This document shows positions 24,811-55,121 of a stretch of DNA of 64,000 nucleotides, piece after piece. Both the position numbers and the translations under genes were made by a program. Positions within the stretch are counted from its first letter, which is position 1, and the number at the start of each line of letters is the position of its first letter. Where the stretch lies: NCBI GenBank assembly GCA_017557525.1, contig JAFYYN010000005.1:1-64000 (forward strand), in the 5' to 3' direction. The stretch is from Lachnospiraceae bacterium (GTDB taxonomy: Bacteria > Bacillota > Clostridia > Lachnospirales > Lachnospiraceae). Under the pieces are notes generated by a model that did not search any database, was not told where the DNA came from, and worked only from the letters and a program-made list of their open reading frames with translations.

Positions 24811-24837
24811 TCGTTCATATATTTAAAATGCTTTGAC

Positions 24838-25185
24838 GGAGAGGATTAGTTAAACGGAAGTGTCAGAGAGGACGGTCCAAGGCTGAAAGACCGTTTCATG
24901 AAAGTTTAATGAAGGTAGCTCCTGAGCAGTGTTTCTGAAAGATGGATAGAAACCCTTCGCTGTGCTACGGGTTTCTTCTGATCGGAATGCGCCATGCGTC
25001 GCGCAAACTGACTGACACAATTCTTCGAATTGTGTCATATAGTAGGAAACATCGGGAAGTCCCGTTACAGACGAGCAGCTTGTTAGAGCAGCGTAAATGA
25101 GACCGAAGTTATGACAAGAATACTTTGGTGAATTAAGGTGGTATCACGATAGCCCTCATCGTCCTTATACGGTGGGGGCTTATAT
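24838..25185 (+). ncRNA. T-box riboswitch (valine) controlling valS
   Basis: The leader shows stem I features (AGAGAGGACGG, GGCTGAAAGACC), then the specifier loop GAAG-GTA-GCTCCTGAGC, with GTA (24915-24917) as the valine specifier codon. A CGGGAAGTCCCG stem is followed by the T-box sequence with TGGT near 25138-25142, whose N base is T, fitting the discriminator A of tRNA-Val. A terminator of 11 bp (25151-25161 with 25170-25180, several G-U pairs) follows. Uncharged tRNA-Val should favour antitermination. Between stem I and the antiterminator sits an extra perfect 11-bp hairpin (25013-25023 with 25027-25037). Confidence 0.92.
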
Positions 25186-52468: not shown

Positions 52469-52483
52469 AGCATACGAAAAATA

Positions 52484-52575
52484 ACAGACGGGAGTTCGCG
52501 TTACGGACTGAGAGGAAGGTATGACCTTCGACCGATAACCTGATTTGGGTAATGCCAACGTAGGGATGACTGAGT
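52484..52575 (+). ncRNA. TPP riboswitch
   Basis: All parts of the THI-box are present: ACGGGAG, CTGAGAGG (pyrimidine-binding loop), GACC, ACCTGAT and GGGTAATGCCAACGTAGGGA (pyrophosphate-binding part). A P3a helix GGAAGGT/ACCTTC is inserted after the CTGAGA. P1 is short (CAG/CTG). A terminator follows, so TPP should turn the operon off at transcription. Confidence 0.95.
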
Positions 52576-52590
52576 TAAATCGTTTCTTGA

Positions 52591-52619
52591 GGCTGCCTGA
52601 TCGGGCAGCTTATTTTTTT
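52591..52619 (+). terminator. Riboswitch-controlled terminator
   Basis: GCTGCC (52592-52597) pairs with GGCAGC (52604-52609), then TTATTTTTTT. It lies directly after the TPP aptamer. Confidence 0.85.
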
Positions 52620-52651
52620 CTGACATCATTTACTACCCTTAAGAGCGGTGA

Positions 52652-52675
52652 ATGTGTTCCGGGCAACCGGACGGA
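52652..52675 (+). other. GCAA-tetraloop hairpin in the thiW leader
   Basis: TCCGG (52658-52662), GCAA loop, CCGGA (52667-52671). It sits between the TPP terminator and the second structured element. Confidence 0.5.
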
Positions 52676-52698
52676 TGGAAGGGGAGCGCCTTGCATCT

Positions 52699-52819
52699 GC
52701 AATAACAGCGATGGGAAGCCGTGTTCCGGCGTGAGAGGAAGCCATTAAGCTTCGACCGATTCTCTATAAAGATCAGTGTATAACATTATACCTGATCAGG
52801 AGGACGACGTTGTTATTGC
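52699..52819 (+). ncRNA. Second, incomplete TPP-like structured RNA
   Basis: GCAATAACAGCG (52699-52710) pairs over 12 bp with CGTTGTTATTGC (52808-52819). Inside, GATGGGAAGCCG..CGGCGTGAGAGGAAGC and CTTCGACCGAT match the pyrimidine-sensing arm of the first aptamer: GAGAGGAAG at 52733-52741 equals 52510-52518, and CTTCGACCGAT at 52750-52760 equals 52526-52536. The pyrophosphate arm (GGGTAATGCC type) is absent, replaced by a 12-bp hairpin (52771-52776 and 52778-52783 with 52786-52797). There is no terminator after it. It could be a variant riboswitch for another thiamine-related ligand, or a decayed duplicate. Confidence 0.6.
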
Positions 52820-52883
52820 CGTTCTCATTTAATTCAAAAAGGATATCAATCAGAAAATGATGATCTCCGGAAAAGAGGTAGAA

Positions 52884-53624
52884 ATGAAAAGTTCAAAAAG
52901 TATTTTGAAAATGGTAGTGCTGGCGATGCTTATCGCCATAGGAGTAGTAATATCACCGATACTCCGTGTTGAGGGAATGTGCCCGATGGCACATTTTATC
53001 AATATAGTCTGTTCTGTATTTATGGGGCCTTGGTATTCACTGCTATGTGCATTCATTATCGGCGTGATCCGTATGGCGATTATGGGAATACCGCCTCTGG
53101 CTCTTACCGGAGCGATATTCGGAGCATTTTTATCGGGAGTATTCTACCGATTGTCAAAGGGGAAACTGATATTTGCGATGCTTGGTGAAATAATAGGAAC
53201 GGGAATTATAGGAGCCATCGTGTCATATCCGATTATGTCGCTTATATGGGGAAAGGACGGACTCAGCCTTTTCTTCTATGTTCCTTCCTTTATCTGTGGA
53301 ACACTTATCGGAGGCAGTATTGCTTTCTTCTTCCTTCGTAAATTTGCAGATATCGGTATGCTTACCAAGATTCAGGATATGCTTGGAAGCAAGGTGTTCT
53401 CCGACAAGAGCACTATTCTTTCAAATACCATATCGATAGCGACATTCGGAGCTATACTGTTCTTCGTGTTCTTTATGGTTCCCCAGGTGTTTAAAGTTGA
53501 GGGAGAAATATGGGGATATCTGGCATACGGTTCAATAGGGTTATTTCTGGTTTTAGCGGTAATCTATTTCATAGTAAAGAAGTTTAAAGGTAAAAATCAA
53601 TCAGAGGGACGGTTCTCTGATTGA
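52884..53624 (+). CDS. thiW: ThiW, thiazole-specific ECF S-component
   Basis: A 246-residue integral membrane protein with about six helices, of the ThiW family that imports hydroxyethylthiazole. The N-terminal part (AMLIAIGVVISPILRVEG, CPMAHFINIVCSVFMGPWYS) is typical. It needs the EcfA1/A2/T module, encoded at 33.6-36.3 kb. The start at 52884 follows AGAGG with 5 nt spacing; an upstream ATG at 52857 has no ribosome site. The last codons and stop (QSEGRFSD) are made of a family B repeat, so the natural C-terminus was replaced. Confidence 0.9.
   Translation: MKSSKSILKMVVLAMLIAIGVVISPILRVEGMCPMAHFINIVCSVFMGPWYSLLCAFIIGVIRMAIMGIPPLALTGAIFGAFLSGVFYRLSKGKLIFAMLGEIIGTGIIGAIVSYPIMSLIWGKDGLSLFFYVPSFICGTLIGGSIAFFFLRKFADIGMLTKIQDMLGSKVFSDKSTILSNTISIATFGAILFFVFFMVPQVFKVEGEIWGYLAYGSIGLFLVLAVIYFIVKKFKGKNQSEGRFSD
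53598..53623. repeat. Palindromic repeat family B at the thiW stop
   Basis: CAATCAGAGGGACGGTTCTC then TGATTG. It is the reverse complement of 459-484 with one difference. The TGA of thiW lies inside. Confidence 0.85.
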
Positions 53625-53651: not shown

Positions 53652-54467
53652 ATGAAAATTAAAGAGGCGATTCAATTGATCAAAGAATATAGAAAGAAAA
53701 TCAGGGAGCTTCGGCCTCTGATCCATTGTATAACAAATCCAATATCGATAAATCAGTGCGCAAATACCATACTTGCCACAGGAGCACGCCCCATGATGGC
53801 AGAACATCCTGAAGAAGCGGCGCTTGTTACCAGGAGTGCCAAAGCTTTGATGCTGAACATGGGAAACATCACAGATGTTAGAAAAGAGTCCATGCTGATA
53901 TCTGTAAAGGCAGCTGCCGAAAACAATATACGTTTTGTCCTCGATATATGTGGGGCTGCATGCCTTAAAACCAGAAGGGATTACGCCTTTTTACTTATCA
54001 ATGAAGCGGTTCCTGCGGTTATAAAAGGAAATTATTCTGAAATCTATGCCCTATACAGGCAGGAATATTCTTCGAGCGGGGTTGATGCGGACGATTCCTT
54101 AACAGCCGAAAAGGTTGAAAAAGCTGCATATGAGCTCGCAGGTACGTTGCATACGACAATCCTTGCCAGTGGAAAAACGGATATAGTGACCGATGGGAAA
54201 AAGATTATGCACGTAAAAAACGGAAGCCCGCAGCTTGCTACTGTAACTGGGACCGGGTGTATGCAGGGAGCCCTGTGTGCTGCATTTTTATCGGTTGCAG
54301 ATGGTTATGAAGCTGCAGTTATGGCCGGCTCAATGTTTGGGATCTGTGGCGAGCTTGCAGAAACTGAAAAAGGGAGCGGGACCTTTATGGTTAATCTCTT
54401 AGACAGACTTTCTACAGTGAGCGATGAGGAAATCTTATTGAGGATGAATTGCGAAGAAATAAGGTAG
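53652..54467 (+). CDS. thiM: Hydroxyethylthiazole kinase
   Basis: A 271-residue ribokinase-fold enzyme that phosphorylates the thiazole alcohol imported by ThiW. Typical segments are PLIHCITNPISINQCANTIL, ARPMMAEHPEEA, NMGNITD and the anion hole with the active Cys in VTGTGCMQGALCAAF. The ribosome site is weak (GGGTG). It follows thiW by 27 bp. Confidence 0.95.
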   Translation: MKIKEAIQLIKEYRKKIRELRPLIHCITNPISINQCANTILATGARPMMAEHPEEAALVTRSAKALMLNMGNITDVRKESMLISVKAAAENNIRFVLDICGAACLKTRRDYAFLLINEAVPAVIKGNYSEIYALYRQEYSSSGVDADDSLTAEKVEKAAYELAGTLHTTILASGKTDIVTDGKKIMHVKNGSPQLATVTGTGCMQGALCAAFLSVADGYEAAVMAGSMFGICGELAETEKGSGTFMVNLLDRLSTVSDEEILLRMNCEEIR

Positions 54468-54485: not shown

Positions 54486-55121
54486 TTGAAAAATTTTAAT
54501 TCCAGATTGTATTTTATTACGGACAGTACATTATATGAAAAGGATGAATTCCTCCGCCGTGTTACCGCGGCTCTTGAGGGCGGGGTAACGCTGGTGCAGC
54601 TGAGGGAAAAGGAAAGGACTACGAGGGAATATCTGGAGCTTGCCAAAGCAGTACATGAGCTTACATTAAAATATAATGTTCCCTTGATCATAGACGACAG
54701 ACTGGATATAGCTATGGCGGCTGATACGGAGGGCGTACATTTAGGACAGAGTGACCTCCCTATAGGTATCGCCAGAAAAATATTCGGACCTGATAAGATC
54801 ATCGGAGCAACAGCGAAAACTGTAGAACAGGCTACAGAAGCTTATGAGCAGGGAGCGGATTATTTAGGAGTCGGAGCAATCTATCCGACGACTACAAAGG
54901 TTAAGACAATACTCACATCGACCGAAATGCTCGATAAAATATGCCATGCCGTTCCTATACCGGTAAATGCCATCGGCGGTCTCAACAAAGACAATATCGA
55001 TGTTTTAAAGGGCATCCCGATAGCAGGCATATGCGTTGTATCAGCCATTATGAAGGCTGATGATCCAAAAAAAGCGACGGAAGATCTGTCACAGGCTATG
55101 AAGGATAAATTGCAGCTTTGA
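54486..55121 (+). CDS. thiE: Thiamine phosphate synthase
   Basis: A 211-residue TIM-barrel enzyme joining HMP-PP and thiazole phosphate to give thiamine phosphate. Motifs are LYFITDSTLY, VTLVQLREKERTTREYLE, IIDDRLDIAMAADTEGVHLG, GATAKTVEQA, GAIYPTTTKV and the phosphate loop AIGGLN. The start is TTG at 54486, 7 nt after AAGGAG. It follows thiM by 18 bp. Confidence 0.95.
   Translation: MKNFNSRLYFITDSTLYEKDEFLRRVTAALEGGVTLVQLREKERTTREYLELAKAVHELTLKYNVPLIIDDRLDIAMAADTEGVHLGQSDLPIGIARKIFGPDKIIGATAKTVEQATEAYEQGADYLGVGAIYPTTTKVKTILTSTEMLDKICHAVPIPVNAIGGLNKDNIDVLKGIPIAGICVVSAIMKADDPKKATEDLSQAMKDKLQL

Follow-up and report, generated by a model that had tools for sequence, protein, structure and literature searches.

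A TPP-riboswitch-like arm in a conserved leader element of thiW: a candidate riboswitch in Lachnospiraceae and other bacteria

Introduction

Riboswitches for thiamin pyrophosphate (TPP; the THI box, RF00059) read their ligand with two arms: P2, J2-3 and P3 form the pyrimidine sensor helix, and P4, J4-5 and P5 form a pyrophosphate sensor that is needed for the response (PMC4112796). In the E. coli structure the hydroxymethylpyrimidine (HMP) ring is held by G18-C48, G19-G42-A47 and A41 (PMC3764141), and riboswitches of this class precede many kinds of thiamin genes (PMC12452182). A second described system, the HMP pyrophosphate (HMP-PP) riboswitch or thiS motif, is found with genes that make and use hydroxyethylthiazole phosphate (HET-P), thiW included; its aptamer is very small and lies almost wholly in an intrinsic terminator, with constructs of 52-66 nucleotides (nt) (PMC6478431, PMC6429828). 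Its expression is reported to be high in thiE and thiS deletions and low in a thiD deletion, the pattern expected of HMP-PP as an ON signal (PMC6478431). It also occurs in tandem, the TPP riboswitch coming first, giving a gate that opens at low TPP and high HMP-PP (PMC6478431, PMC6429828, PMC9481103). Here and below, statements about cited papers refer to extracts of those papers. In this work we analysed a 64,000-nt stretch of the genome of a Lachnospiraceae bacterium (GCA_017557525.1, contig JAFYYN010000005.1, positions 1 to 64,000, hereafter the window), in which a TPP riboswitch is followed, ahead of thiW, by a second structured element that resembles one arm of the TPP aptamer.

Results

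The second element occupies positions 52642-52825, between the terminator-like hairpin of the first unit and thiW. A preliminary description of the locus, made from the sequence by a model, had read it as a tandem TPP riboswitch whose second unit has lost the pyrophosphate arm. Its account of a complete TPP aptamer and terminator in first place agrees with the Rfam TPP match and with the hairpin and T run seen by eye (Table 1), and the 12-base-pair stem that it drew around the second unit (P1, 52699-52710 with 52808-52819) is present, with 11 Watson-Crick pairs and one G-U. This stem belongs to the minimum-energy fold of 52690-52830 (z -3.19, none of 200 shuffles being as good); when the longer leader (52610-52900) is folded, the outermost P1 base 52699 pairs with 52672 instead, and by eye a short CUG/CAG hairpin is also possible in the inner part of the 5' strand. 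Both exact blocks said to be common to the two units were found in each, GAGAGGAAG at 52510 and 52733 and CTTCGACCGAT at 52526 and 52750. Where the TPP aptamer has GGGTAATGCC, a hairpin of 12 base pairs had been described: the pyrophosphate arm is indeed gone and a hairpin does stand there in the window, but it has 11 base pairs with a one-base bulge (fold of 52690-52830) and is not conserved, the region at this place ranging among relatives from almost nothing (Veillonella, L094) to long hairpins. Two parts had been missed, namely a hairpin, HpB (52674-52697), which is the most conserved outer part, and an outer stem, P0 (52642-52648 with 52819-52825).

No family of Rfam 15 matches the second element, even at E <= 10 on the leader; this includes the TPP model, the check that the preliminary description had suggested. 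Three weak matches in the leader at that threshold were to unrelated families and were set aside. When 20 loci carrying the element were scanned in the same way, 15 TPP matches were returned, none of them at the element's place. The kinship appears from the other side: a covariance model of the element (R1, described below) gave 31 secondary matches at E <= 1 in 80 loci, and all 31 were TPP aptamers, recognised by a P4/P5 regular expression. The UGAGA/P3/P3a arm is thus TPP-like, as had been claimed for the pyrimidine-reading arm. UGAGA, GGG(A) and (G)ACC occur in all 27 elements found with the model (L064-L090), by a regular expression that asks for these letters and dropped none. Loose patterns for the P4/P5 pyrophosphate arm hit 7 and 2 of 113 elements, about 6.8 being expected for the first by an estimate rather than a shuffle. 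The element and the TPP riboswitch therefore have GGGA, P3, the UGAGA junction, P3a and GACC of the pyrimidine sensor helix in common, whereas the element lacks P4/P5 and carries the extra 5' HpB with its loop GGAGCG and a conserved P3 loop, UGUUY. Since the letters kept coincide with the residues that hold the HMP ring (PMC3764141; E. coli numbering aligned by hand, not computed), and since P2, J2-3 and P3 form the pyrimidine sensor helix, the element, as judged from its sequence, amounts to a TPP-type aptamer that keeps one half, lacks the other and has a new hairpin in addition.

A BLASTN search with 52630-52860 gave strong matches (E <= 1e-8) in 10 of 24 genomes of the same genus, the own genome included, and the conserved core of the matches begins upstream of P1, at HpB; L042 shows no trace of the element in its aligned flank. 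From eight same-genus sequences we built R1, which comprises HpB, P3 and P3a; L029, whose long linker was misaligned, was left out of the model. Among 397 genomes of the family R1 found 39 genomes at E <= 0.01 and 29 genomes (30 places) at 45 bits or more. Two of 17 weaker places were inspected and both are TPP aptamers, one being the first unit of the window (32 bits) and the other L091 (by sequence). Wider samples, which overlap one another and contain the own genome, were searched at E <= 1e-6; R1 hit 14 of 246 genomes from the order, 16 of 291 from the class and 3 of 348 from the phylum. We also ran an independent pattern, made of letters of the TPP-like arm only and without HpB, on genomes of named species, which yielded at least 119 loci. 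All 119 also match R1, with scores of at least 32 bits in 80 of them and of at least 38 bits in the other 39, and the exact HpB motif GGGGAGC[GT]CC, which the pattern does not ask for, stands in front in 72 of the 80 and 32 of the 39. Among the matches listed are Lachnospiraceae, Oscillospiraceae, Faecalibacterium, Gemmiger, Veillonella, Anaerovibrio, Floccifex and Faecalibacillus, which we take to represent the classes Clostridia, Negativicutes and Erysipelotrichia.

For comparison we assembled a working set of 113 elements, consisting of the 80 pattern loci, L064-L090, the window and the eight same-genus loci, with near-duplicates kept and the incomplete loci L119, L137 and L153 left out; the 39 added pattern loci bring it to 152 elements and are excluded from the covariation counts. 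A wider HpB pattern is present in 110 of the 113, the exceptions being L155, whose HpB is cut by the end of the sequence, and L095 and L136, which are alike. An alignment fitted to the model comprised 101 matches from 100 sources in 100 distinct rows, one row being the TPP aptamer of L034, and HpB is misplaced in some rows with long linkers. In this alignment 98.9% of cells pair, against 38-51% in slid controls, both sides change in 15 of 17 pairs, and the covariation score is 0.625 against 0.184 after shuffling. HpB, P3 and P3a all covary among relatives, the outcome of the covariation check that had been recommended, with the support for P3a resting on the model-fitted alignment. A fit-free check, in which HpB and P3 were anchored by sequence alone in 94 unique sequences, gave pairing at HpB position L-8 in 92 of 94 (shuffled mean 41, maximum 51), at L-6 in 80 (mean 39, maximum 50) and at P3 position 1 in 93 (mean 45, maximum 58). 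The HpB loop GGAGCG is kept in 87 of the 94 and the P3 loop UGUUY in 89. The constant parts of the family are HpB and the TPP-like P2/P3/UGAGA/P3a arm. The element is conserved in related thiW leaders, and the suggestion that it is no decayed duplicate but a variant that looks functional is borne out, HpB being the strongest argument against decay.

The long P1 had itself been put forward as conserved and as an argument against decay. P1 is real, but in about half of the collected elements: at least 8 of 10 pairs form in 55 of 113 rows, against a mean of 28.6 (maximum 34) in 30 arm swaps. In 41 anchored sequences the outward positions 1, 2 and 4 pair above all of 1000 shuffles and position 3 ties the maximum, and positions 5-8 are unremarkable. 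Duplex energy reaches p <= 0.05 in 30 of 110 (mean z -1.03), which shows that P1 is not universal; in five leaders of the PhnD-like group described below, 4 of 44 swaps were as good or better. P0 is supported on average over the 53 sequences with P1-like pairing, not individually, its mean pairing energy being -13.66 for matched strands against -11.79 for swapped ones (standard deviation 0.41, 20 swaps).

A stretch similar to GAAAGGAnGUGA recurs just 5' of P0 in L064, L070, L133 and others. By eye it resembles a ribosome site with a start codon, and it could be a short upstream reading frame or a part of P0. A four-base kissing contact between the HpB and P3 loops, possible by eye, was also considered; because the two loops hardly vary and three UAUUC sequences would break the pairing, we count it as no evidence.

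The genes downstream were recognised by tblastn with representatives of five protein families, so that intervening genes of other families escape. Among the 152 elements the first recognised gene is thiW in 134, thiM in 4, thiG in 1 and a gene for a PhnD-like binding protein in 6, with none in 7. The working set contributes 99, 3, 1, 5 and 5 to these counts, its five without a gene having less than 300 nt of available sequence, and the added loci contribute thiW 35, thiM 1, PhnD-like 1 and none 2; a few of the thiW matches, such as that of L171 (50 bits), are partial. The position directly before thiW that had been noted in the window is therefore the rule, and in the 397-genome scan each of the 30 places that reach 45 bits precedes thiW (28), thiM (1) or thiG (1). 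Of the 108 elements with at least 500 nt of upstream sequence, 69 have a TPP aptamer no more than about 700 nt ahead of them (44 of 72 and 25 of 36, by regular expression). Rfam places one in 15 of the 20 scanned loci, in L078 at about 1.1 kb from the element.

The PhnD-like group (L106, L131, L144, L152, L167 and L177) is a divergent subgroup of the element before an ABC binding protein, possibly belonging to a new transporter for a thiamin compound. The one protein scanned, that of L152, matches the thiamine-binding lipoprotein family CypI, though below the cut-off. A script found terminator-like hairpins 3' of the element in L106, L131 and L152, and such hairpins were also seen by eye in L144 and L167. 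A ThiW subgroup with a distinct N-terminal sequence (L070, L074, L099, L138 and L164) follows the same element, and its one scanned member, from L070, matches PF09512 at 115.6 bits. In two same-genus genomes the stretch from the element to thiW contains tandem repeats, with periods of 45 and of 38 or 19 (L037, 1612-1817; L041, 1275-1391), L037 being the same genome as L139.

Neither ThiC nor ThiG was found in the own genome, which is 92.5% complete. ThiC is present in 12 of 29 genomes with the element against 23 of 30 chosen thiW genomes without it, and ThiG (above 300 bits) in 7 of 29 against 13 of 30, kinship being ignored in both comparisons. This suggests that carriers of the element often salvage both halves of thiamin.

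As to how the element could act on its gene, no run of five T separates it from the first gene in 71 of 108 leaders, and a local terminator-like hairpin was found in 12 of 108 by a script that is blind to stems enclosing the element. In L075, which lies on the minus strand before thiG, P0 looks long by eye and seven T come immediately after it, so that the whole element seems to sit within a terminator stem. Pairing of the P0 strand as an anti-Shine-Dalgarno sequence is unconvincing (mean z -0.45 over 68 leaders, z +1.4 in the window).

In the window thiW, thiM and thiE are consecutive, with a thiamin pyrophosphokinase gene farther upstream; the Pfam scan covered ten proteins, four of them from the window, and the scanned proteins bear assigned names. 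The likely start of thiW is 52884, preceded by AAAAGAGG, the listed open reading frame starting at 52857. Elsewhere in the window Rfam recognises a T-box leader at 24824-25169 (RF00230, 98.3 bits).

Table 1. Positions of the two units, their parts and the genes behind them in the window
Feature	Position	Strand	Basis
Canonical TPP riboswitch aptamer (first unit)	52480..52584	+	Rfam RF00059, 60 bits (cut-off 54.3)
Terminator-like hairpin and T run behind the TPP aptamer	~52590..52619	+	Sequence by eye; hairpin part also aligned in the Rfam scan
P0 5' strand (AGAGCGG), outer stem of the second element	52642..52648	+	Fold of 52610-52900; mean strand-pairing energy in relatives
HpA, variable hairpin (UCCGG-GCAA-CCGGA)	52658..52671	+	Fold; hairpin there in many relatives, by eye
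HpB, GAUG-g-AAGG-GGAGCG-CCUU-g-CAUC	52674..52697	+	Nearly invariant loop (52683-52688); stem covaries
P1 5' strand / linker	52699..52710	+	Fold; shuffle tests on anchored sequences
TPP-like arm: GAUGGGAA, P3 (52718-52730), G, UGAGA (52732-52736), G, P3a (52738-52753), GACC (52754-52757)	52710..52757	+	R1 cross-matches to TPP; P3/P3a covariation
Variable region at the place of the TPP pyrophosphate arm; hairpin in the window	52760..52805	+	Fold; comparison with relatives
P1 3' strand (CGUUGUUAUUGC)	52808..52819	+	Fold, duplex energy, shuffles, arm swaps
P0 3' strand (CCGUUCU), possible anti-Shine-Dalgarno	52819..52825	+	Fold and swaps for P0; ribosome-site pairing weak
Probable ribosome binding site of thiW, AAAAGAGG	52871..52878	+	From sequence
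thiW, thiamine-precursor transporter (thiazole by literature)	52884..53624	+	Pfam PF09512, 160.7 bits (read from 52887)
thiM, hydroxyethylthiazole kinase	53652..54467	+	Pfam PF02110, 207.8 bits
thiE, thiamin-phosphate synthase	54486..55121	+	Pfam PF02581, 206.9 bits

Discussion

The second unit has a conserved structure with a TPP-like arm and without P4/P5, it is associated with thiazole genes, and it frequently stands in tandem with a TPP riboswitch. We suggest that it is a conserved RNA that regulates in cis and is most probably a riboswitch, whose ligand would carry the HMP moiety and would be other than TPP or sensed besides it, HMP-PP being the likeliest; we put the probability of this reading at roughly 0.45. 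HMP-PP is the partner of the thiazole HET-P and fits the gene set best, and as candidate ligands we propose HMP-PP first and thiamin or TMP next. The second element would bind the ligand with HpB completing the pocket, and closure of P1/P0 beside the ribosome site or a terminator would set the output of the gene. As one member of a tandem with the TPP switch, the element would make thiazole import and phosphorylation depend both on the need for TPP and on the supply of the pyrimidine partner. A tentative and more specific scenario, which we hold possible yet doubtful, is that a TPP aptamer lost its pyrophosphate arm and that the 5' HpB replaced it by docking on the P3 loop UGUUY, giving an HMP-PP sensor independent of the thiS-motif RNA that would balance thiazole uptake against pyrimidine supply.

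Several findings weigh against HMP-PP. The PhnD-like protein is no known thiazole gene product. ThiC is rarer in genomes with the element than in the thiW genomes without it, and HMP-PP would therefore often have to come from salvage. Closure of P1 would cover the likely start codon in L094 and L166 and touch the ribosome site in L111, L113 and L140; should the ligand stabilise P1, as it does in TPP aptamers, such leaders would be OFF switches, which are ill-suited to HMP-PP. An antiterminator sought in five PhnD-like leaders was rejected, the matched energy of -14.38 being no better than the swapped one of -14.51.

The five leaders L094, L166, L111, L113 and L140 speak for an OFF switch for thiamin or TMP, in which the pyrimidine arm and HpB would bind the vitamin and closure of P1 would stop thiazole import. 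The likely thiW start codon lies inside the P1 3' strand in the first two and the strand adjoins the ribosome site in the other three, and a thiamin or TMP ligand explains all five better because P1 stabilised by it would shut the gene. Some RNAs classed as TPP riboswitches are moreover stated to favour thiamin or TMP (PMC9481103, citing unpublished findings), and the six elements before a PhnD-like protein, with the sub-cutoff CypI match of L152, would suit a sensor of the vitamin. A thiamin sensor would, however, be expected to control genes of the pyrimidine branch, thiC for example, as well, and no such gene is the first one recognised at any of the 30 places that reach 45 bits; all told we consider this explanation somewhat unlikely.

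A second TPP sensor of new build, with HpB as the pyrophosphate site and a tandem that would only steepen the response to TPP, has precedent in the steeper-response tandem TPP riboswitches that are known (PMC9481103). Yet neither the sequence nor the place of HpB visibly resembles that of P4/P5, the element escapes the Rfam TPP model, and it stands mostly before thiW, whereas the genes behind TPP switches are thiamin genes of many kinds (PMC12452182), all of which make this improbable. We regard as slightly less probable again a sensor of the thiazole itself, hydroxyethylthiazole or HET-P, that would shut off thiazole import, phosphorylation and synthesis by feedback; the recognised genes, thiW, thiM and thiG, do lie on the thiazole side with the PhnD-like group excepted, but the conserved arm is the one that reads the pyrimidine in TPP aptamers and the sequence offers no thiazole site. 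A TPP duplicate in decay, to which the blocks common with the neighbouring TPP unit could point, or a protein-bound leader that senses no ligand, is the least credible of all, since covariation over 94-100 sequences and the spread over several families exclude decay, a protein-bound leader still being compatible with them.

Among described RNAs, the HMP-PP riboswitch is one of the nearest to the element. Both go with thiazole-supply genes including thiW, stand in tandem behind a TPP riboswitch and occur in Firmicutes. The element, however, has a core of about 85 nt with a TPP-like arm, of which the extracts describing the thiS motif make no mention, and unlike that motif it is mostly not embedded in a terminator, given the 71 of 108 leaders free of a five-T run, although L075 may differ. 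No thiS-motif family appeared in the Rfam scans of the window with its leader and of the 20 loci, the distinction from that motif being drawn from its description rather than from a consensus. The unpublished Breaker-laboratory variants of the TPP class, for thiamin or TMP (PMC9481103), are likewise derived from TPP riboswitches, have an altered ligand and may stand in tandem; the element differs in that the TPP model does not match it, a separation by description that leaves room for overlap. From the TPP riboswitch itself, with which it is often in tandem, it is further set apart by its narrow gene set. We found no description of such an element in the open-access literature, as covered by titles and the beginnings of abstracts, with subscription papers mostly and preprints wholly outside that scope. 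By its sequence it looks like an undescribed riboswitch.

More than 100 members, clearly covarying and tied to one pathway, make up the motif, which points to a set of eight candidate ligands. Should HMP-PP or thiamin prove to be what it binds, a very old aptamer would have been split, with one arm kept and the other rebuilt, and would have turned from sensing the end product to sensing a precursor. The element may also explain how the salvage of the two halves of thiamin is balanced in Clostridia that lack ThiC and ThiG.
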